DNA of 64,000 bases from an uncultured Armatimonadota bacterium (GCA_903927345.1 CAIYMO010000021.1:1-64000); one strand, 5' to 3'; shown: positions 30,657-64,000, counted from the stretch's first letter. The notes: generated by a model not told the origin, from the sequence alone. A program made the numbers and translations.

Positions 30657-33083
30657 ATGAAGAGCCGATTCGTTTACGTCGTTGGGTGCCTGTTAGGGTT
30701 AGTTGCGAGTGGTTTCGCTCAGCAAGCCCGCAAAGAGGTGGTGTTCTGGGGTCTTTCGATGGGTCCGGATTCGAAGGGGCAGGATGCGGTTCTGCGAGCC
30801 TTTGAGGAGCGAAATCCTGACCTCAAGATCAAACTGCTCAGCATGGGCGCGGGCCGGATGGACCCGCAGAAGTTGATGACTTCCATTGTCGGAAACGTCG
30901 CTCCAGACGTGATCAGCCAGGACCGGTTTACGATTTCCGACTGGGCTTCTCGTGGTGCGTTCCTCCAGCTTGACGACTATATCTCGCGAGATGCAGCGAA
31001 AGATCCGCTGTGCCCGACTCCGGATCAGTATTATCCGGCGACTTGGGCCGAGGCTCAGTACGAAGGGAAAACCTTCGCAATTCCGACCGGAGCTGACAAC
31101 CGTGTTTTGTATTGGAACCGGAAGATTTTCAAGGAGAGCGAAGCGGATCTTGTACGTAATGGGTGTGATCCGACACGACCGCCCCGAACGTGGTCCGAGC
31201 TTCTGAAGTACAGCGAGGCGATCACCAAATTTGACAAGAACGGTCGGATTGTTCGGGCTGGGTTTATGCCCAATTTCGGTAATTCATGGCTGTACATGTT
31301 TGCCTTCATGAACAACGCTGAGTTCTTGAGTAAGGACGGCCGCACCTGCACGATGAACACTCCTGAAGCTCGTGAGGCGCTTGACTTCATGGTCAAGGGT
31401 TACAAGATCGTCGGTGGGTACGAGATGTCCGAGAAGTTTAAGAGCGGCTTCCAAGGTAAAGAAAATGATCCATTCATTCTCGGCCAGGTCGCGATGAAAA
31501 TCGACGGCGAGTGGATTTTGAACGACCTCGCACGTTATGCGCCGTCGCTTGACTTCCAGTGCGCCCCGCCCCCAGTTCCTGACGATCGTTACAACAAGGT
31601 TGGGCGATTCAAGAATGAGAAGGATCGGTTCATCACTTGGGTCGGGGGATCTTCACTCGCGATTCCAAAAGGTGCTCGGAATCCGGCTGATGCGTGGCGA
31701 TTCATCAAGTTCATGACCTCGTTCGAGGGACGAATGATTGAATACCGTGCCCAGGCTGCTTGGGAAAAGCAGCGGGATCGGACGTTTATGCCGCGGCAGA
31801 TGGCGCACAAAGCGGGCAACGAAGAGGCCTCGAGAGTCTTTGCGCCGAAGTTTGGTAACTACGGGCAGGCGCTTGCGATGCACACTGAGATCTCCAACTT
31901 CAGCCGAATCCGTCCAGCGACCTTTGTCGGCCAGTTGATTTGGCAAGAGCATGTCCGGGCCATGGAAGCAGCGTGCTTTGGAAAGGAAACGAGCGAAAGT
32001 GCGCTCGCCTCGGCGCAGGCGAATGTACAGCGGGATCTGGATGCGTTCTATAACAAAAGTCGCTATCCGGAGATCGATTTGCGGTTCCCCGGGGTTGTCG
32101 GAGTTCTGGGCCTTCTGGGTTTTATAGCCTTCTTTGTTTGGCAGTTTAAGAGAGAGAAGATTGGTCGACTGGAGCGTCAGGAAGCGAAGTGGGCTTACCT
32201 GTTTATCTCACCTTGGGTGATCGGTTTCATGCTGCTGACCATTGGGCCAATGATGGCTTCGTTGTTCTTCACGTTTACCCAGTGGGACGTTCTGAACGAG
32301 GCTCGATGGGTTGGACTGAAGAACTATGAGGACATGTTTGGGAGCGATCGTAAGATGGTCTTCAAGGCGCTTGGTAATGCGGCGTACCTGGCAGGGGTCG
32401 GTGTTCCGCTTGGTTTGACGACCGGACTCCTGATTGCCTTGCTGCTGAATGCGGCCGCACGCGGAATCCGGGTTTATCGAACAATCTTCTATCTTCCAGC
32501 AATCGTTCCGGGAATTGCGAGCGCGGTGCTCTGGTCGTGGGTTCTCAACCCGGAACCGGTCAAGGGCCTCATCAACGCTTATTGGAATGTGACACTTACG
32601 CCGTGGCTCGGTGTACAACCCCCAGGGTGGATCCAGTCGGCCGAGTGGTGTAAGCCGGCATTGATTCTAATGGGTCTTTGGGGTGCGGGGAGCGGCATGG
32701 TGTTGTGGCTTGCCGGGCTCAAGGGTGTTCCGACCAGCCTTTACGAGGCTGCGTCTTTGGACGGAGCAAATGCGAAGCAGACCTTCTGGTCAATCACATT
32801 CCCTCAGCTAACACCTTTGGTGTTCTTCAATACGGTTATGGGATTCATTGGGTCGCTCCAGGAGTTTGATCGCGTGTACGTTATGCGACCTTCCCTTGAT
32901 GGCCCGGTGGGCCCAGATGACGCGATGATGACGCCGGTCTATCTGCTGTTCAACAACGGGTTTGGCTTGTTCAAAATGGGATACGCGTCAGCACTTGCAT
33001 GGCTTGTTTTTGTCATTGTTGTACTCATAACGTTCATCCAGTTTAAGCTGAAGAACCGATGGGTTCACGAGGAGGTTAAGTAA
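30657..33083 (+). CDS. ABC sugar transporter: solute-binding protein fused to MalF-type permease
   Basis: An 808-residue fusion. Residues 1-25 are a signal peptide (MKSRFVYVVGCLLGLVASGFAQ). Residues about 27-455 are a family 1 (MalE-like) solute-binding protein (EVVFWGLSMGPDSKGQDAVLRAFEERNPDLKI, NRVLYWNRKIFKE). A membrane helix follows at about 478-497, then residues ~515-808 form a MalF/UgpA-type permease with the EAA loop EAASLDGANAKQTFWSITFPQ that contacts the ATPase. The ATG at 30657 is chosen; ATG at 30642 is nearly inside the -10 box. The stop and next ATG overlap as TAATG. No ATPase gene is nearby. Confidence 0.88.
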   Translation: MKSRFVYVVGCLLGLVASGFAQQARKEVVFWGLSMGPDSKGQDAVLRAFEERNPDLKIKLLSMGAGRMDPQKLMTSIVGNVAPDVISQDRFTISDWASRGAFLQLDDYISRDAAKDPLCPTPDQYYPATWAEAQYEGKTFAIPTGADNRVLYWNRKIFKESEADLVRNGCDPTRPPRTWSELLKYSEAITKFDKNGRIVRAGFMPNFGNSWLYMFAFMNNAEFLSKDGRTCTMNTPEAREALDFMVKGYKIVGGYEMSEKFKSGFQGKENDPFILGQVAMKIDGEWILNDLARYAPSLDFQCAPPPVPDDRYNKVGRFKNEKDRFITWVGGSSLAIPKGARNPADAWRFIKFMTSFEGRMIEYRAQAAWEKQRDRTFMPRQMAHKAGNEEASRVFAPKFGNYGQALAMHTEISNFSRIRPATFVGQLIWQEHVRAMEAACFGKETSESALASAQANVQRDLDAFYNKSRYPEIDLRFPGVVGVLGLLGFIAFFVWQFKREKIGRLERQEAKWAYLFISPWVIGFMLLTIGPMMASLFFTFTQWDVLNEARWVGLKNYEDMFGSDRKMVFKALGNAAYLAGVGVPLGLTTGLLIALLLNAAARGIRVYRTIFYLPAIVPGIASAVLWSWVLNPEPVKGLINAYWNVTLTPWLGVQPPGWIQSAEWCKPALILMGLWGAGSGMVLWLAGLKGVPTSLYEAASLDGANAKQTFWSITFPQLTPLVFFNTVMGFIGSLQEFDRVYVMRPSLDGPVGPDDAMMTPVYLLFNNGFGLFKMGYASALAWLVFVIVVLITFIQFKLKNRWVHEEVK

Positions 33084-34819
33084 TGCCAGTAGGAACTTGG
33101 TTCGCGGTTGGGACGCTTGCTTCGTGGCTGGCGATCATCTTCGGTCTGAAGATGGTGGGGCAGCTGTTCTTCGTTGGTACGGGGCAGCTCGATTCTGACC
33201 CAGGCAGGACTCGGGCGGACCTCAGGCTGAATTCGCTCCTCACCGGAGTTTTTGCGGCGATTGGAATCTATCTCACGGCTCCCTTCAGCAAGACGGGCTA
33301 TAAGCTTCCACTTGTATGGTTTGTGATGCCCTGGACGGCTTGGCTAGGCTTTGCATGTACGGGATTGATGCTTGCTCGCTCAGCTCAGACGATCACAGCG
33401 ATCTCGCCCGAAGAACGTCTTGGGAAGCTCAAAGCTGCCATGGGCTTGTTCGGTGCGGTTGTGGTGTTCGTGGGTCTATTCAAATACGACCAAGAGAGCA
33501 AGATCGAAATTTTGAAAGGTGGAATCCCTCTCACTTTGGCGATGGCTTTGGGGACCTTGGGACTGGCGATTGCCGCGGTCGGAGCCATGGTTGTCACGGC
33601 GCATTCGGCTAACGCATGTGGTCTCGGAAAGACAATCATTACTCAGCTTGCTTTGCTCGCAGGGTCGGTCGTGTTCGGCATCCCGTTCGTGTTCTTGCTG
33701 GTGACTTCGTTTAAGGAAGACCAGGACATGAGCTCTAAGAACGGCATTGTCTGGATTCCGAAGGTGACGGAGACTGTGCCGTACCTCAGCCCGGATAAGG
33801 CCAAAAAGCACTACGAGGTCATGTATGAGGGCAAAGTTGTGGAGGGACTTGAGATTGGCCAAGAAGCGGGCAAGGTCAAGATCGACATATTCAAGCCAAT
33901 CTCGATTCGGGGGACTACGTTCTTGGCTGAGCGGAGCGAGCTCAAAGAAGTTCCTGTGGCGGCGAAGGTCTACACCACAAAGGTTGGCAACGTACCCGTG
34001 AAGGGGTTCGAATCTGACAGCCTTGCCGATGGGTCAAGGATTCTCCAGATTTTGGAGCCGCCATCGATGAAAGGGAAGGCGACGACGGTGAAGCCGGACC
34101 AGACCGAACCGGTGCGTCACGTCGGGCTTCGAACCGAAAATTACTCAGAAGCGCTGAGTTACTTGCCCCCGGAGACTCTCAACGGCTTGGTCTACGTGAA
34201 AAACACGTTGATTCTGGTTGTCATGAATGTCATCGGAACCATTCTGGGGTCGAGCATTGTCGCCTATGCGTTTTCGCGGATGAAGTTCCCGGGTAAGGAG
34301 AAGATGTTCTCGGTCTTGCTTGCGACGATGATGCTGCCAAGCGCGATCACATTGCTGCCTCAGTTCTTGATCTTCCGAACTCTCGGCTGGATCGATACCT
34401 TGTATCCCCTCTGGGTTCCGGCATTCTTTGGGTCAGCGTTTAACATCTTCCTGTTGCGGCAGTTCTTCTCTCAGATCCCGATGGAGCTGGAGGACGCGGC
34501 GAAGATTGATGGATGTACTTACTTGAAGACGTTCTGGTCGATCATGATTCCACAGATCAAGCCGGCTCTTGCAGTCATCGCGATCTGGACGTTCATGGGG
34601 GCTTGGAACAACTTCATGGGGCCGCTGATCTACATCAACTCGCCAGAGAACATGCCGTTAAGCTACTCGCTTGCTCTGTTTAAGGGTGACCGGAGCGGGG
34701 AACCTGGGCTTCTGATGGCGTTCTCGACACTGACGGTCATTCCGGTGATTGCGCTGTTCGCCTTCGCGCAGCGGTACTTCATTGAGGGCGTGACACTTTC
34801 CGGGCTGGGCGGTCGCTAG
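33083..34819 (+). CDS. ABC sugar transporter permease, MalG-type, with N-terminal helices and a large periplasmic insert
   Basis: A 578-residue protein about twice the size of a usual MalG. The first ~180 residues carry four or five extra membrane helices. The canonical permease starts with TM1 near 188-208 (LALLAGSVVFGIPFVFLLVTSF). TM1 is then followed not by the normal short loop but by ~155 residues (about 208-366) of soluble beta-rich text. The conserved core resumes at NTLILVVMNVIGTILGSSIVAYAFSR, with the EAA loop EDAAKIDGCTYLKTFWSIMIPQ. It is translationally coupled to the fusion gene. The last four bases overlap the convergent DUF429 gene. Confidence 0.88.
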   Translation: MPVGTWFAVGTLASWLAIIFGLKMVGQLFFVGTGQLDSDPGRTRADLRLNSLLTGVFAAIGIYLTAPFSKTGYKLPLVWFVMPWTAWLGFACTGLMLARSAQTITAISPEERLGKLKAAMGLFGAVVVFVGLFKYDQESKIEILKGGIPLTLAMALGTLGLAIAAVGAMVVTAHSANACGLGKTIITQLALLAGSVVFGIPFVFLLVTSFKEDQDMSSKNGIVWIPKVTETVPYLSPDKAKKHYEVMYEGKVVEGLEIGQEAGKVKIDIFKPISIRGTTFLAERSELKEVPVAAKVYTTKVGNVPVKGFESDSLADGSRILQILEPPSMKGKATTVKPDQTEPVRHVGLRTENYSEALSYLPPETLNGLVYVKNTLILVVMNVIGTILGSSIVAYAFSRMKFPGKEKMFSVLLATMMLPSAITLLPQFLIFRTLGWIDTLYPLWVPAFFGSAFNIFLLRQFFSQIPMELEDAAKIDGCTYLKTFWSIMIPQIKPALAVIAIWTFMGAWNNFMGPLIYINSPENMPLSYSLALFKGDRSGEPGLLMAFSTLTVIPVIALFAFAQRYFIEGVTLSGLGGR

Positions 34820-38761: not shown

Positions 38762-38796
38762 CGCCCCGAGGTTCATCGAACCTCGGGGCGTTTTTG
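38762..38796 (+). terminator. terminator of rpsB-tsf
   Basis: A 13-bp perfect stem (cgccccgaggttc, 38762-38774 with 38778-38790), loop atc, then TTTTT. Confidence 0.95.
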
Positions 38797-38847
38797 TTAT
38801 CAACAGCCTTTTCATTCTTGGGTGGTTATGTAAACTCGCTGGTGAGA

Positions 38848-40359
38848 ATGCTAACACTTCTCGCCTACGCGACTATGAGCCAGAAACCTGTCACTCCCAC
38901 CCCGACGATTTGGGCGGATGTGCCAGATATTTCGGTGGTCCGGGTGGGGCGGGACTATTACATGAGCAGCACCACGATGCACATGAACCCAGGGGTGCCG
39001 ATTATGAAGTCGCGCGATCTGGTGAATTGGCGTACGGTGAGTTACTGCTACGATGATCTGGGCAGTAGTCCCCGCCAGGACTTGTTGGATGGGAAGAACG
39101 AATACGGAAGGGGGACTTGGGCGAGTTCACTCCGATTCCACAATGGAACGTTTTATTGCTCGACATTTAGCAACACGACGGGTAAGACGTACATCTTTTC
39201 AACGAAGACGCCCGACCGGGGGCCGTGGAAGAAGACCGAGTTTGCGCCGGCGGTGCATGACCACTCATTGGTTTTTGATGGCGGTAAGGCTTATCTGATT
39301 CACGGCGTCGGAAAGATTCGGATTCAGGAACTGAAGGATGACCTCAGTGGCCTGAACCCGGGCGGAGTCGATCAAGTGCTGATTCAGGACGTGGCAGCGC
39401 CAACTGGGGCAAAGGCAGGGCTGATGGGCGAGGGGTCCCAACTGTTCAAGGTGGGAGGCAAGTACTACTTGTTCAACATCGTCTGGCCGAGAGGCGGAAT
39501 CCGGACGCAAGTGGTCCACCGCGCGGATTCACTCCTTGGTCCCTATGAGGGAAGGGTGTTTCTTGCTGATCAGGGAATCGCGCAAGGCGGGATTGTCGAT
39601 ACGCAGGATGGACGTTGGTATACATATTTGTTTGGTGATCGGGGTGCGGTTGGTCGCATTCCGTACATGTTGCCTTTCCATTGGGAGGAAGGTTGGCCAG
39701 TGGTTGGAACTGGTGCAAAAATACCTTCTGAGGCTTCACTCCTCCCTGGTCAAACCGACTTGAAAGGGATTGTTCGATCCGATGAATTCCGGGCGAAGAA
39801 GCTTGGACTGGAGTGGCAGTGGAATCATAACCCTGATCCGGCGCTGTGGTCGCTTACCGCGCGACCAGGCTGGGTGCGGTTAGCAACGGGCCGCGTAGAC
39901 GACGTGGTGACCCAGGCTCGAAACACGCTGACTCAGCGGACGTTTGGGCCGACGTGCACAGGGACGGTTCGATTGGACTTCTCGGGGCTGAAGGATGGCG
40001 ACACGGCGGGGCTGCTCGCCTTGATGGGCAAGTACGGTTACATTGGGGTTCGCCGGACGGGCGATATGCGCGAACTCGTCATGGTGTCGGCAACTTCGGG
40101 CAAACCAGAAGTTTTGGCGGCGGTACCTGTCAAAGGATCTGTGGTTCAACTGCGGATGTCGTGTGACTTTGCGAAGCAGGCTGATCTCTGCTCGTTCTCG
40201 TACTCTGTGGATGGTAAATCCTGGACACCCATTGGGGCGCCGATCCACTTAAGGTACGAGCTGAGTCATTTTATGGGGTGCCGCTTTGGGCTATTCAACT
40301 TTGCGACGAAGCAGGTGGGTGGTCATGCTGATTTCGACTTCTTCCGAATCGGCTCGTAG
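38848..40359 (+). CDS. glycoside hydrolase family 43 protein
   Basis: A 503-residue GH43 enzyme. The five-bladed propeller begins with the catalytic-base signature WADVPDISVVRVGRDYYMSSTTMHMNPGVPIMKSRDLVNW. The C-terminal ~200 residues (from about 320) look like the concanavalin-like sandwich found in beta-xylosidase/arabinofuranosidase members. The start is unsure: ATG 38848 (chosen; a TAAACT box lies 11 bases upstream) or ATG 38875. The frame's first TTG at 38794 overlaps the preceding terminator's T-run and is rejected. No normal signal peptide is visible, so the enzyme may be cytoplasmic. Confidence 0.85.
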   Translation: MLTLLAYATMSQKPVTPTPTIWADVPDISVVRVGRDYYMSSTTMHMNPGVPIMKSRDLVNWRTVSYCYDDLGSSPRQDLLDGKNEYGRGTWASSLRFHNGTFYCSTFSNTTGKTYIFSTKTPDRGPWKKTEFAPAVHDHSLVFDGGKAYLIHGVGKIRIQELKDDLSGLNPGGVDQVLIQDVAAPTGAKAGLMGEGSQLFKVGGKYYLFNIVWPRGGIRTQVVHRADSLLGPYEGRVFLADQGIAQGGIVDTQDGRWYTYLFGDRGAVGRIPYMLPFHWEEGWPVVGTGAKIPSEASLLPGQTDLKGIVRSDEFRAKKLGLEWQWNHNPDPALWSLTARPGWVRLATGRVDDVVTQARNTLTQRTFGPTCTGTVRLDFSGLKDGDTAGLLALMGKYGYIGVRRTGDMRELVMVSATSGKPEVLAAVPVKGSVVQLRMSCDFAKQADLCSFSYSVDGKSWTPIGAPIHLRYELSHFMGCRFGLFNFATKQVGGHADFDFFRIGS

Positions 40360-40388
40360 GCTGGTCGGGGCTGACCCGGCTCTTCTGA

Positions 40389-40394
40389 TAGAAT
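40389..40394 (+). promoter_or_regulatory. -10 box for leaderless DUF1080 gene
   Basis: TAGAAT six bases before the ATG at 40401. Confidence 0.5.
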
Positions 40395-40400
40395 GAGGGC

Positions 40401-41057
40401 ATGACGATTCTTCTTGCCGCTGCCTTGTTGCTGATCCCTCAAGGGAAGTTCTCTCTATTCAACGGCAAGGACCTTACAGGTTGGCATGCGGACGTTCCAG
40501 AGATGGACGCGAACAAGTCCGCGCGGATGCCGTTTATCGTTCGAGACGGCATGTTGGTGAGCCTGGGCACGCCCGGTGGTCACTTGATTACCGATCGGCT
40601 GTATGAGAACTATCGGTTGGAGATTGAGTATCGCTTTGCGGCTAAGCCGGGAAACTGTGGAGTTTTGGTTCATGCATCAAAGCCGAGGATGTTGTACGGA
40701 ATGTTCCCGCAGTCGCTTGAGGTCCAGATGCAGAGCGGAGACGCGGGCGATTTCTGGTGCATCGGCGAGGATGTAACAGTTCCCGATATGGTCGCCCGTC
40801 GTGGACCCAAGTCGAATTGGGGCGTCACGGAAGGGAAGGGACGCCGGGTGAAAAATCTAACCGACGGGACGGAAAAGCCTTTGGGCGAATGGAATACGAT
40901 GAAGATCGAGTGCTTGGGGGCAAGCGTTAAGGTTTGGGTCAACGGGGTGGTCGTGAACGAGGGTTCAAATTGTACGGCTCGAAAGGGTCAGATCGCGCTT
41001 CAGGCGGAAGGGGCAGAGGTCGAGTTCCGTAAGCTTTTGCTGTCGCCTCTGAGTTAG
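40401..41057 (+). CDS. DUF1080 (3-keto-disaccharide hydrolase-type) protein
   Basis: A 218-residue protein with a short hydrophobic start and one DUF1080 domain: SLFNGKDLTGWHADV, then YRLEIEYRFAAKPGNCGVLVHA, LEVQMQSGDAGDFWCIG and the GEWNTMKIECLGASVKVWVNGVVVNEGSN segment. The fold is a concanavalin-like jelly roll; some members hydrolyse 3-keto sugars. It lies next to a GH43 gene, which fits polysaccharide breakdown. Confidence 0.88.
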   Translation: MTILLAAALLLIPQGKFSLFNGKDLTGWHADVPEMDANKSARMPFIVRDGMLVSLGTPGGHLITDRLYENYRLEIEYRFAAKPGNCGVLVHASKPRMLYGMFPQSLEVQMQSGDAGDFWCIGEDVTVPDMVARRGPKSNWGVTEGKGRRVKNLTDGTEKPLGEWNTMKIECLGASVKVWVNGVVVNEGSNCTARKGQIALQAEGAEVEFRKLLLSPLS

Positions 41058-56338: not shown

Positions 56339-57300
56339 TCACGACCCCCGTTGATAAGGCGGTTGTCCAACCCGGGCAACCGACGCCGCCAGAGTCTCCG
56401 TTCAATCGCGAACGGAGACTTTCGCGGTCTTTGCCTGAGGGGATTGCGCGATGGTTCTGTCTAATTTGTGCTCTTCTTTCTGTAGTCACAACTGTGGGCA
56501 TTGTCTACGTCCTCCTCAGCCAGGCTCTCCCGTTCTTTGGGCAAGTGAATCTTAAGGAGTTCTTTACCGGACGTGATTGGCGTCCAACTCCAGAGCCAGG
56601 AACCTATGGCGTTTTGCCGCTGGTGACCGGAACGATGATGATTACATTCGGGGCTGGGCTAATTGCCCTGCCGCTAGGGTTGCTCAGCGCTATTTACCTC
56701 GCTGAATATGCCCGTCCAAAAGTTCGCGCTGTACTAAAACCCGCGCTCGAGCTGCTCGCCGGTATTCCGACGGTTGTTTACGGATACTTTGGCTTGTTCG
56801 TTGTTACCCCCGCACTCAAAAACATTTTTCCTTCGATTCAAACTTCGAACGCACTCGCAGGCGCGATTGTTGTTGGGGTCATGATTCTGCCTCTCGTCTC
56901 CTCGCTCTGTGAAGACGCAATTTCCTCAGTTCCGAAAGCGCTTCGTGAAGGTGCCCAGGGACTTGGTGCAACAAAGGCCGAGACGATTTCTAAAATCGTT
57001 GTTCCGGCGGCATTCTCAGGAGTGATCGCTTCGTTCATTCTTGCCCTCAGCCGTGCCCTCGGCGAAACGATGGCGGTTACCTTGGCTGCGGGATCGAATC
57101 CGGTGATCTCGCTGGATCCGACAAAAGGCATCCAGACGATGACGGCGTACATGGTTTCGACTTCGAAGGGCGACTTGGTTTACGGATCAATGAAGCACTA
57201 TTCGATCTTCGCGGTCGGCCTCCTTCTGTTCACCTTTACGATGATCATGAACATCATCGCCCGACGACTTGTCGCTAAGTTTAAGCTGAACTACCAATGA
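56335..57300 (+). CDS. pstC: phosphate ABC transporter permease PstC
   Basis: A 321-residue membrane protein with six helices after a soluble N terminus rich in Pro. The family region YAVLPLVTGTMM-like text (TYGVLPLVTGTMMITFGAGLIALPLGLLSAIYLAEYA) and the EAA loop REGAQGLGATKAETISKIVVPAAFSG are present. The start is GTG overlapping pstS; the next gene overlaps by ATGA. Confidence 0.94.
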   Translation: MITTPVDKAVVQPGQPTPPESPFNRERRLSRSLPEGIARWFCLICALLSVVTTVGIVYVLLSQALPFFGQVNLKEFFTGRDWRPTPEPGTYGVLPLVTGTMMITFGAGLIALPLGLLSAIYLAEYARPKVRAVLKPALELLAGIPTVVYGYFGLFVVTPALKNIFPSIQTSNALAGAIVVGVMILPLVSSLCEDAISSVPKALREGAQGLGATKAETISKIVVPAAFSGVIASFILALSRALGETMAVTLAAGSNPVISLDPTKGIQTMTAYMVSTSKGDLVYGSMKHYSIFAVGLLLFTFTMIMNIIARRLVAKFKLNYQ

Positions 57301-58178
57301 CGATTGACCCAGCTCTCGCCAAGAATCTTGCGTCGCGCAAGAGGAAAGACAAAATCTTCCAAGTTGTCTGCCAATTGGCGGCAATTGCTGGCGTCATCCT
57401 TCTCGTCATTTTCTTGAGCAAGATCTTTGTCGATGGCATCGGCAAGCTCAGCTGGAAGTTCATCACGGACGACTTGTCGAACCGAGCAAAGCGAACTGGG
57501 CTCTGGCCAGCCATCGTTGGTTCGGCCTACGTGATGGTTTTGACGACCTGCATTTCGGTGCCGATTGGCGTTGGCGCGGCGATCTACCTTGAAGAATTCA
57601 ACAAGAAGAAAACCGGGCTGACCAACCTGATTCAGTTGAACATTGCGAACCTGAGCGGTGTTCCATCGATCGTTTACGGTCTGCTTGGGCGAGTGTTGTT
57701 CATCGTGGTGATGGGTCTTGGCCAGAGCATTATTGCTGGCGCCCTGACGATGACGCTGCTGATTCTTCCCACGGTCATTATCGTGACCCAAGAGGCACTT
57801 CGTGCGGTTCCTAAAAGCTACCGTGAAGGTTCGCTTGCTCTTGGTAGTTCGCAGTGGCAAGCAATTCGACGTCAGGTCCTTCCTAACGCAGCGCCTGGAA
57901 TTCTGACCGGAATCATCCTCTCGATTAGCCGAGCCATCGGCGAGACTGCGCCGTTGATCGTCGTTGGAGCAGCAAGCTACGTCAGTAGCTTGCCAAAGGG
58001 CTTGAAGGACAGCTACACAGTTCTCCCAATCAAGATTTTTGACTGGGCGAACGAGAGCCAAGAAGAGTTCCATAAGGTCGCAGCGAGCGCAATTCTGGTT
58101 TTGATGGTCTGCCTCTTGGCGATGAACTCCGTGGCGATTGTTCTTCGGGCAAAAAATCAGGCAAACGCAAAGCGGTAA
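57297..58178 (+). CDS. pstA: phosphate ABC transporter permease PstA
   Basis: A 293-residue, six-helix permease. GLWPAIVGSAYVMVLTTCISVPIGVGAAIYLEEF, the NLSGVPSIVYGLLG segment and the EAA loop REGSLALGSSQWQAIRRQVLPNAAPG are characteristic. It closes the operon; the ATPase gene pstB and phoU, which normally follow, are not here and an M42 peptidase gene comes next. Confidence 0.94.
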   Translation: MTIDPALAKNLASRKRKDKIFQVVCQLAAIAGVILLVIFLSKIFVDGIGKLSWKFITDDLSNRAKRTGLWPAIVGSAYVMVLTTCISVPIGVGAAIYLEEFNKKKTGLTNLIQLNIANLSGVPSIVYGLLGRVLFIVVMGLGQSIIAGALTMTLLILPTVIIVTQEALRAVPKSYREGSLALGSSQWQAIRRQVLPNAAPGILTGIILSISRAIGETAPLIVVGAASYVSSLPKGLKDSYTVLPIKIFDWANESQEEFHKVAASAILVLMVCLLAMNSVAIVLRAKNQANAKR

Positions 58179-62970: not shown

Positions 62971-64000
62971 ATGAGTCTGGTCAGTCAAGTTGGACGTAAA
63001 CGCCCTCGCGCGCGCTTGGCAATGGCCTTCCTCTACTTACTTCTCACCACTGGCGCACTCACGACGGTCTACCCATTCCTGCTGATGGTGAGTACGGGAC
63101 TGAAGGGTCCGACTGACCAGAACGACACGTCGGTCATTCCTGCTTATGTCGCGGACTCCACCGAGCTCTTGAACAAGTATGTCGATGATAAGTATTCGGG
63201 CAACGTCGAGCTGATTGGATCGACCCGGATCGGTTCAGAAGGCGATGTTGAAGAGTATGAGCGGTTCCTGATGTCCCTACCTCCTGACCAGTGGATGGCG
63301 GGATTTCGGCTGGCTCCAAACCAGGTGACGAGCCGGGTTACTCAGCGGTATCAGCAATGGCTGCGCTCACGCTTTGAATCCATCGAAGAACTCAATAAGG
63401 CCTACATCGAGGAGAATGTCGCATTTCAGACCGTCCAGCCCCCGACCGAGCAATTGGAGCGGGCAACCTGGAAGCCCCTTGCTGCCCAGCGTTACCAAGA
63501 TTGGCTAGAGTTCAAGCAGACTTTGCCTGCCGAATATCGGATTCCGGTGAGGACGACACGCCTCTGGCAGGAGTACCTGCGGACCACCTATAAGAACCGA
63601 ATCGAAGATGTGCCAGCGGAACTGAGCGGCGGGGCAAAGAGTTTTGAGACGATCTCAACCAAGCCATCAGGCGACGATTATCTGAAGCAGCTCCCAGAGC
63701 GCTATAAGAATGGGACGGCCGAAGAAGCTTGGAGTGCGAGCCACTCTGAGTCAATGCCCATTCTTGCGGCAGAGAAGGCGTTTGCTTCCGCTCATGCAGG
63801 AGAGATCAAGCGAGAGTTTGCGGGTCGAAACTTCCGATACGTCCTCGACTACATCCTGATTAACGGCCGAGCTGTACTGAATACGATCATCTTCTGCGGA
63901 CTGGCGATCTTGACGCAACTGGTGGTGAATCCGCTTGCCGCCTATGCGCTTTCGCGATATCCGATCAAGGCGTCGGGAAAGATTTTGCTATTCTTGCTCG
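62971..64000 (+). CDS. ABC sugar transporter permease, MalG-type, with large periplasmic insert (cut by right edge)
   Basis: 343 residues are visible. TM1 (LAMAFLYLLLTTGALTTVYPFLLMVST, about 16-43) ends in the usual STGLKG. About 245 residues of soluble, charged, helical text then follow (44-290, for example RFRS-type WLRSRFESIEELNKAYIEE). The MalG core resumes at NGRAVLNTIIFCGLAILTQLVVNPLAAYALSRYPI. A normal MalG has a short loop here. The ATG is six bases after TAAGAT (62959-62964). The EAA loop would lie beyond the edge. Confidence 0.85.
   Translation, partial: MSLVSQVGRKRPRARLAMAFLYLLLTTGALTTVYPFLLMVSTGLKGPTDQNDTSVIPAYVADSTELLNKYVDDKYSGNVELIGSTRIGSEGDVEEYERFLMSLPPDQWMAGFRLAPNQVTSRVTQRYQQWLRSRFESIEELNKAYIEENVAFQTVQPPTEQLERATWKPLAAQRYQDWLEFKQTLPAEYRIPVRTTRLWQEYLRTTYKNRIEDVPAELSGGAKSFETISTKPSGDDYLKQLPERYKNGTAEEAWSASHSESMPILAAEKAFASAHAGEIKREFAGRNFRYVLDYILINGRAVLNTIIFCGLAILTQLVVNPLAAYALSRYPIKASGKILLFLL

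Follow-up and report, generated by a model that had tools for sequence, protein, structure and literature searches.

The genome of an uncultured Armatimonadota bacterium (GCA_903927345.1) carries a two-gene unit, here called EF and G, that we judge on balance to encode a CUT1-type oligosaccharide importer built from EF, G and two shared MalK subunits, in which a receptor tethered to the MalF-type permease docks on an enlarged P1 loop of MalG. The identity of EF-G as an importer is well supported, and the arrangement of familiar parts appears to be an undescribed variant of the CUT1 importer. The unit lies within the window, that is, the whole 64,000-nucleotide stretch analyzed here, which covers positions 1-64000 of a contig of 171,838 bases (CAIYMO010000021.1, hereafter C21) in a genome of 3.1 Mb whose closest named relatives are Fimbriimonas / Fimbriimonadales, within the phylum Armatimonadota.

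The fused receptor-permease, its MalG partner and the ATPase

The first-pass annotation of this DNA had described the receptor and the MalF-type permease as one 808-residue chain, and this is borne out by an intact frame that contains both a sugar-binding receptor of the solute-binding protein (SBP) family SBP_bac_1/8 (SBP_bac_1 at residues 43-357, E 7.9e-33) and a permease domain (BPD_transp_1 at residues 586-799, E 5.3e-11) and that recurs in relatives (Table 1). The putative signal peptide was assigned from the sequence and its hydrophobic helix rather than by a dedicated predictor. The anchor helix between receptor and permease is missing from normal MalF proteins of this kind and takes the chain across the membrane, from the receptor on the outside to the MalF core, which begins on the inside; the EAA-type loop accordingly falls inside the cell. 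Moreover, the location of the receptor within the MalF chain means that receptor and channel are made 1:1.

G contains a single BPD_transp_1 domain (residues 392-567) and an EAA-type loop around residues 466-494, read in the sequence as the motif PMELEDAAKIDGCTYLKTFWSIMIPQIKP, so that two distinct permease subunits are present, each with a BPD_transp_1 core and an EAA-type loop, as expected of a CUT1 transporter. The best NCBIfam models were UgpA/GlcT/MalF for EF and UgpE/MalG/GlcU for G, rankings that indicate a maltose-type (CUT1) pair. The suggestion that G is a doubled MalG-type permease had to be abandoned: besides the single domain, HHalign gave 0.1% for the N-terminus against the core and 1% for the two halves of the N-terminus against each other, and the structural matches of G to MalG/SugB span residues ~163-577 only. 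The four to five extra N-terminal helices announced in the same annotation proved to be five by hydropathy and AlphaFold, all preceding transmembrane helix 1 (TM1) of the core, and they would pack at the edge of MalG. Such helices number about five in Fimbriimonadaceae; most of the other classes have about three, and some have none. Homology between the five-helix and three-helix N-termini was not shown by HHalign (5%). Charge bias in the extra loops is weak, and the orientation consequently rests on the homologous core.

Table 1. Features of the EF-G unit, with positions in the window; residue numbers refer to the protein concerned.
Feature	Position	Strand	Evidence or remark
Fused SBP-MalF gene EF, 808 amino acids	30657..33083	+	SBP_bac_1 and BPD_transp_1 in a single frame; most of the phylum has full-length relatives
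Putative signal peptide MKSRFVYVVGCLLGLVASGFAQ	30657..30722	+	Hydrophobic helix 2-19
Periplasmic sugar-binding domain, residues 25-465	30729..32051	+	AlphaFold pLDDT mostly 84-96; CpMnBP1 best PDB match
Extra anchor helix, residues 476-499, ~10-residue linker from SBP	32082..32153	+	Hydropathy 477-495; AlphaFold helix 476-499
MalF-type permease core, residues 513-806	32193..33074	+	Domain and profile matches
EAA-type loop of EF around residues 696-715, motif LYEAASLDGANAKQTFWSITFPQLTP	32742..32801	+	Read in the sequence
MalG-type permease gene G, 578 amino acids	33083..34819	+	Overlaps EF by 1 base
Five extra N-terminal helices, residues 3-174	33089..33604	+	Hydropathy, AlphaFold; unlike the permease core
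MalG core TM1, residues 181-209	33623..33709	+	AlphaFold; structural match
Periplasmic P1-loop insert between core TM1 and TM2, residues 210-368, ~159 residues	33710..34186	+	Hydropathy, AlphaFold, relatives
SH3-like barrel copy 1, residues 241-291	33803..33955	+	AlphaFold; HHalign
SH3-like barrel copy 2, residues 292-349	33956..34129	+	AlphaFold; HHalign; Foldseek; the copy most like the single barrel seen in other classes
MalG core TM2-TM6, residues 369-578	34187..34816	+	Domain, profile and structural matches

The closest solved receptor, by both sequence and fold, is CpMnBP1 (4r9f, 4r9g), with a profile E of 1.2e-49 over residues 12-461. CpMnBP1 is a separate protein that binds mannobiose and mannotriose, whereas the EF receptor is fused and shares only 23-24% identity with it, so that specificity cannot be transferred; the remote similarity suggests that the cargo may be a beta-linked manno- or gluco-oligosaccharide.

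The absence of an ATPase gene was also upheld, since none is adjacent and none of the 47 ABC_tran matches in the genome falls on C21. A MalK-type ATPase with the C-terminal OB/TOBE region of CUT1 systems is nevertheless present in the cell: the only OB_MalK protein of the genome (378 amino acids, L018 751-1887) is encoded on contig C48, far from EF-G, and no other MalK-type ATPase was found in the genome. Permease genes without a linked ATPase, several permease pairs and one MalK thus occur together, as in MsmX-type systems. Among the 201 Armatimonadota genomes sampled for the phylum survey, OB_MalK was detected in 175, with two copies in only 12, which agrees with the distant, shared MsmX-like ATPase anticipated by the first-pass annotation. 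The C48 protein aligned over its full length with archaeal MalK (1g29, E 6.4e-124) and with MsmX (6yir, E 1.9e-113). Four conserved charged residues have been reported for multitask ATPases, and the sharing of such ATPases is established for CUT1 importers (MsmX, MsmK) (PMC7658222); in an alignment read by eye, C48 MalK keeps D77, R104 and K154 of these residues and has E110 replaced by D. An insertion of ~16 residues after LRLREL (the KGFFWQLANASEAKRI region), missing in MsmX and archaeal MalK, was also observed in this protein. We infer that C48 MalK drives EF-G, in which case EF, G and two copies of this MalK would form the importer, and ATP-driven sugar uptake is predicted.

It could be argued that EF-G does not import sugar but acts as a sensor or transceptor, given that it forms a stand-alone two-gene unit without an ATPase or conserved or catabolic neighbours. 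This is very improbable, because both EAA-type loops for ATPase docking are retained, the domain search found no signalling domain in EF or G, and ATPase sharing is, as noted, an established practice among CUT1 importers.

The periplasmic insert of MalG

The insert, which had been estimated at ~155 residues after TM1, was confirmed at about that length, and its periplasmic location follows from the three helices that separate it from the cytoplasmic EAA-type loop. In the AlphaFold model, where the predicted local distance difference test (pLDDT) across residues ~230-345 is mostly about 80 (one block 69), the insert forms two successive barrels with an identical order of strands and short helices. 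The two copies matched each other by HHalign at 96.3% (E 1.8e-9), compared with 10% for the best of 100 column shuffles, and Foldseek searches with the insert retrieved tandem Agenet and Tudor structures with modest significance (E 0.011-0.12, with 0.011 for a tandem Agenet structure). On this basis the insert is predicted, at modest significance, to consist of tandem five-stranded SH3-like small beta barrels. The single insert found in other classes matches copy 1 at 96.7% and copy 2 at 98.3% (HHalign), and the evidence from sequence and model shows that a tandem duplication of the one barrel found in other classes produced the pair. Since the single barrel matches copy 2 better, copy 1 is likely to be the addition in Fimbriimonadaceae.

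The P1 loop was measured in 93 EF-G pairs of the window's fused clade and in 37 pairs with other MalF partners. In the clade, loop lengths fell at 16-33 (9 pairs), 83-106, 141-149 or 298-315 residues, the last three ranges corresponding to one barrel, two barrels and an unrelated domain, respectively. For the inserts of ~300 residues, HHalign found no homology to the barrels beyond the common loop stem. The domain of this size, with a W-rich motif (SWH.L...), was observed in MalG proteins of several other classes (L157-L161, L163, L168, L097), and it has no Pfam match.

EF has no large P2 domain, its core TM1-TM2 loop being only ~32 residues long, and because MalF lacks P2 while the barrels occupy the P1 loop of MalG, we suggest that the barrels help dock the tethered receptor, which they would cradle by contact. 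In Escherichia coli, MalF has an enlarged loop after core TM1 together with extra N-terminal helices, and the barrels are proposed to be the functional counterpart of its P2 loop, on the opposite subunit but at the equivalent position after core TM1. The first-pass annotation correctly placed the insert on MalG rather than on MalF, but its implication that only MalF contacts the receptor was incomplete, since the E. coli maltose-binding protein touches both MalF P2 and MalG P1 according to the work of Daus et al. (2007) as it is cited in PMC3150292. The tether, in turn, would hold the receptor near the pore and so replace the diffusion of a free periplasmic receptor.

The same importer might instead use the barrels to bind another periplasmic partner (peptidoglycan, the target of SH3b domains, or a partner in the outer membrane or a polymer) that would place the transporter within the envelope. 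SH3-like folds in many surface proteins bind peptidoglycan or peptides, and the unrelated ~300-residue domain found in the same loop elsewhere would fit a replaceable adaptor of that sort. Nonetheless, we regard this role as unlikely, because the loop that holds the barrels is the one through which E. coli MalG touches the binding protein, the barrels lie directly beside the expected SBP docking site, and no match to a Pfam SH3 family attains E 1. Another explanation is that the decorations are neutral, the loop being permissive and tolerating domains without a dedicated role. Loop content does vary by class, with no inserted domain in L144, L149, L156 and L162, and the insert, like the N-terminal helices, has diverged more rapidly than the core, with a mean identity of 0.40-0.42 for the insert vs 0.79 for the core. 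However, both the insert (nonsynonymous pN 0.09-0.15 vs synonymous pS 0.83-0.86) and the N-terminal helices are under purifying selection, and the loop sizes are discrete, with no intermediates in the 93 pairs, which makes neutrality an improbable explanation.

Docking of the tethered receptor on the MalG loop is retained as the preferred reading, and several observations weigh against it. Outside the insert, the AlphaFold model of MalG has low confidence (mean pLDDT 66, predicted template modelling score 0.37). The occurrence of P1 loops of at least 80 residues in 84 of the 93 pairs of the fused clade vs 2 of the 37 pairs with other partners speaks for it, but this contrast counts related sequences and mostly reflects shared descent, and the corresponding Fisher value (6e-21) ignores that descent and is not independent evidence. 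The remaining nine fused-clade MalGs have no insert at all, indicating that the insert is not required for the fusion as such. Besides, no conserved neighbour genes of EF-G were found across the 21 loci whose gene neighbourhoods were compared, so that the substrate assignment depends only on the remote similarity of the receptor.

Spread of the fusion and other transporter genes

Matches to EF at E 1e-10 were found in 184 of the 201 genomes, and receptor and permease occur together, with at least 42% identity to EF, in about 118 genomes, which represent 28 of the 41 families, as tallied by hand from the match table with a few relatives cut by contig ends. Identity of the fused frame across the phylum ranges from 42 to 91%. 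The recurrence of fused frame and insert in many genomes indicates that they are neither chance nor assembly errors, and the possibility that the fusion is an artefact of assembly or annotation is practically negligible, since the fused open frames extend across these families and include complete single-contig genomes (G117, G078, G085). Nothing was found in favour of such an artefact except a frame break in one relative (L113, on contig C9 of G005), where two frames that overlap replace the single one, the break lying within the receptor near query residue 340. This break, probably a frameshift or sequencing error, does not fall at the junction. Elsewhere the related genomes keep the single frame, and with the insert placed on the periplasmic side, neither of the two outcomes that would have contradicted the first-pass annotation was observed. 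EF and G are neighbours in most genomes. In family f5 the orthologs of the window's pair are separated, by ~67 kb on one contig in G003 (L166, L167; C66:57090 and 125442) or by their location on different contigs, yet both are kept.

Outside the phylum, named genomes were scanned with peptides of EF, a search that more distant fusions would escape, and fused proteins were found in a KSB1 bacterium (L095, 40%), a Sumerlaeaceae bacterium (L101, 37%) and a Gemmatimonadaceae bacterium (L098, 37%). Those of KSB1 and Sumerlaeota adjoin ordinary MalGs of 286 and 279 amino acids, which suggests that the fusion probably predates the elaboration of MalG. In the MalF tree, the window's fused clade includes the KSB1 and Sumerlaeota proteins (support 100/96), and other fused proteins, among them two more from the source genome (on C36 and C57), fall elsewhere. 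A single MalF clade of all fused sequences was rejected, as the tree needs at least three changes between the fused and separate states, at least two of them forced by supported branches. We tentatively propose, at less than even confidence, that the receptor was first fixed to MalF and that MalG then gained a modular dock (zero, one or two barrels or a ~300-residue domain) doing the job of MalF P2, in a class of importers spanning the phylum. On a contig labelled as a Methanoregulaceae archaeon (L088, a metagenome-assembled genome), a Fimbriimonadia-type operon at 65% identity is followed by a second fused SBP-MalF; this genome is probably mislabelled or contaminated.

The source genome encodes two more fused proteins, one of 805 amino acids on C36 with an ordinary MalG of 292 amino acids and one of 801 amino acids on C57 (89407-91809, L009) without an adjacent MalG, along with ordinary split receptor/MalF/MalG systems. 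A second MalG-type gene (503 amino acids) stands alone at positions 62972-64000 of the window and continues to C21:64480 (L011 2972-4483). It has a different P1 insert of ~248 residues, in which motifs like QWLRSRFESIEELNKAY seem to be repeated and residues ~121-183 of the protein weakly resemble GH42 beta-galactosidase, at an E of 0.015 that does not pass the cut-off. Among 50 good-quality genomes of the family, this second MalG and the lone fused protein are both present in 40 and both missing in 9, and disagree in one; they were never found adjacent, lying for example ~90 kb apart in the complete genome G117, and they probably constitute one transporter encoded at two places. Additionally, positions 56671-58139 of the window hold another BPD_transp_1 permease pair (open frames of 326 and 297 amino acids), also without an ATPase on the contig. 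Outside the transporter, positions 38794-41057 contain a GH43/beta-xylosidase-like gene followed by a gene with a 3-keto-disaccharide hydrolase domain, behind rpsB and tsf.

Relation to known systems and significance

EF-G resembles E. coli MalEFGK2 in its MalF/MalG-type cores, sugar-binding protein fold and OB-domain MalK, and the G core superposes on E. coli MalG (3rlf_G) with Z 12.7 over 242 residues at 25% identity. It differs in that the SBP is covalently attached to MalF, MalG rather than MalF bears the large loop and the extra helices, two SH3-like barrels make up the loop domain and the ATPase is unlinked. A receptor tethered covalently by a short linker and an anchor helix is shared with OpuA and GlnPQ of Lactococcus; OpuA has an 11-amino-acid linker, with an estimated apparent receptor concentration of 4 mM (PMC11065425). 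These transporters, however, carry betaine or amino acids and have homodimeric permeases, whereas EF-G belongs to another family, with MalF/MalG/UgpA/UgpE models scoring best rather than those of OTCN/PAO, and has two different permeases, with one receptor per heterodimer. The order of the domains is also reversed, as the substrate-binding domain of OpuA follows the permease and the EF receptor precedes MalF.

The CUT1 importers energized by MsmX or MsmK likewise have permease operons without an ATPase and one multitask MalK encoded elsewhere (PMC7658222), but their SBPs are free and their MalG is undecorated, in contrast to the fused SBP and decorated MalG described here. The trehalose importer LpqY-SugABC of mycobacteria, whose SugB is the closest match to the G core by VIA-align (8hps_B, Z 13.9, 249 residues), similarly lacks the MalF P2 domain, but it has neither the fusion nor the P1 insert and possesses its own ATPase, SugC. 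Our search of the literature, which left subscription papers largely outside its reach, found no description of an SBP-MalF fusion or of the MalG insert, and the Fimbriimonas genome paper gives gene counts only.

Most sugar importers of diderm bacteria use free periplasmic receptors, while most of this phylum has tethered ones, which coexist within a cell with ordinary split systems. The role of periplasmic loops in receptor docking has so far been studied mainly in MalF P2 of E. coli, and the stepwise domains of the MalG loop (none, one barrel, two barrels or another domain) provide natural variants with which docking can be probed. Besides, the naturally fused receptor-channel pairs of these bacteria may be convenient for structural work.

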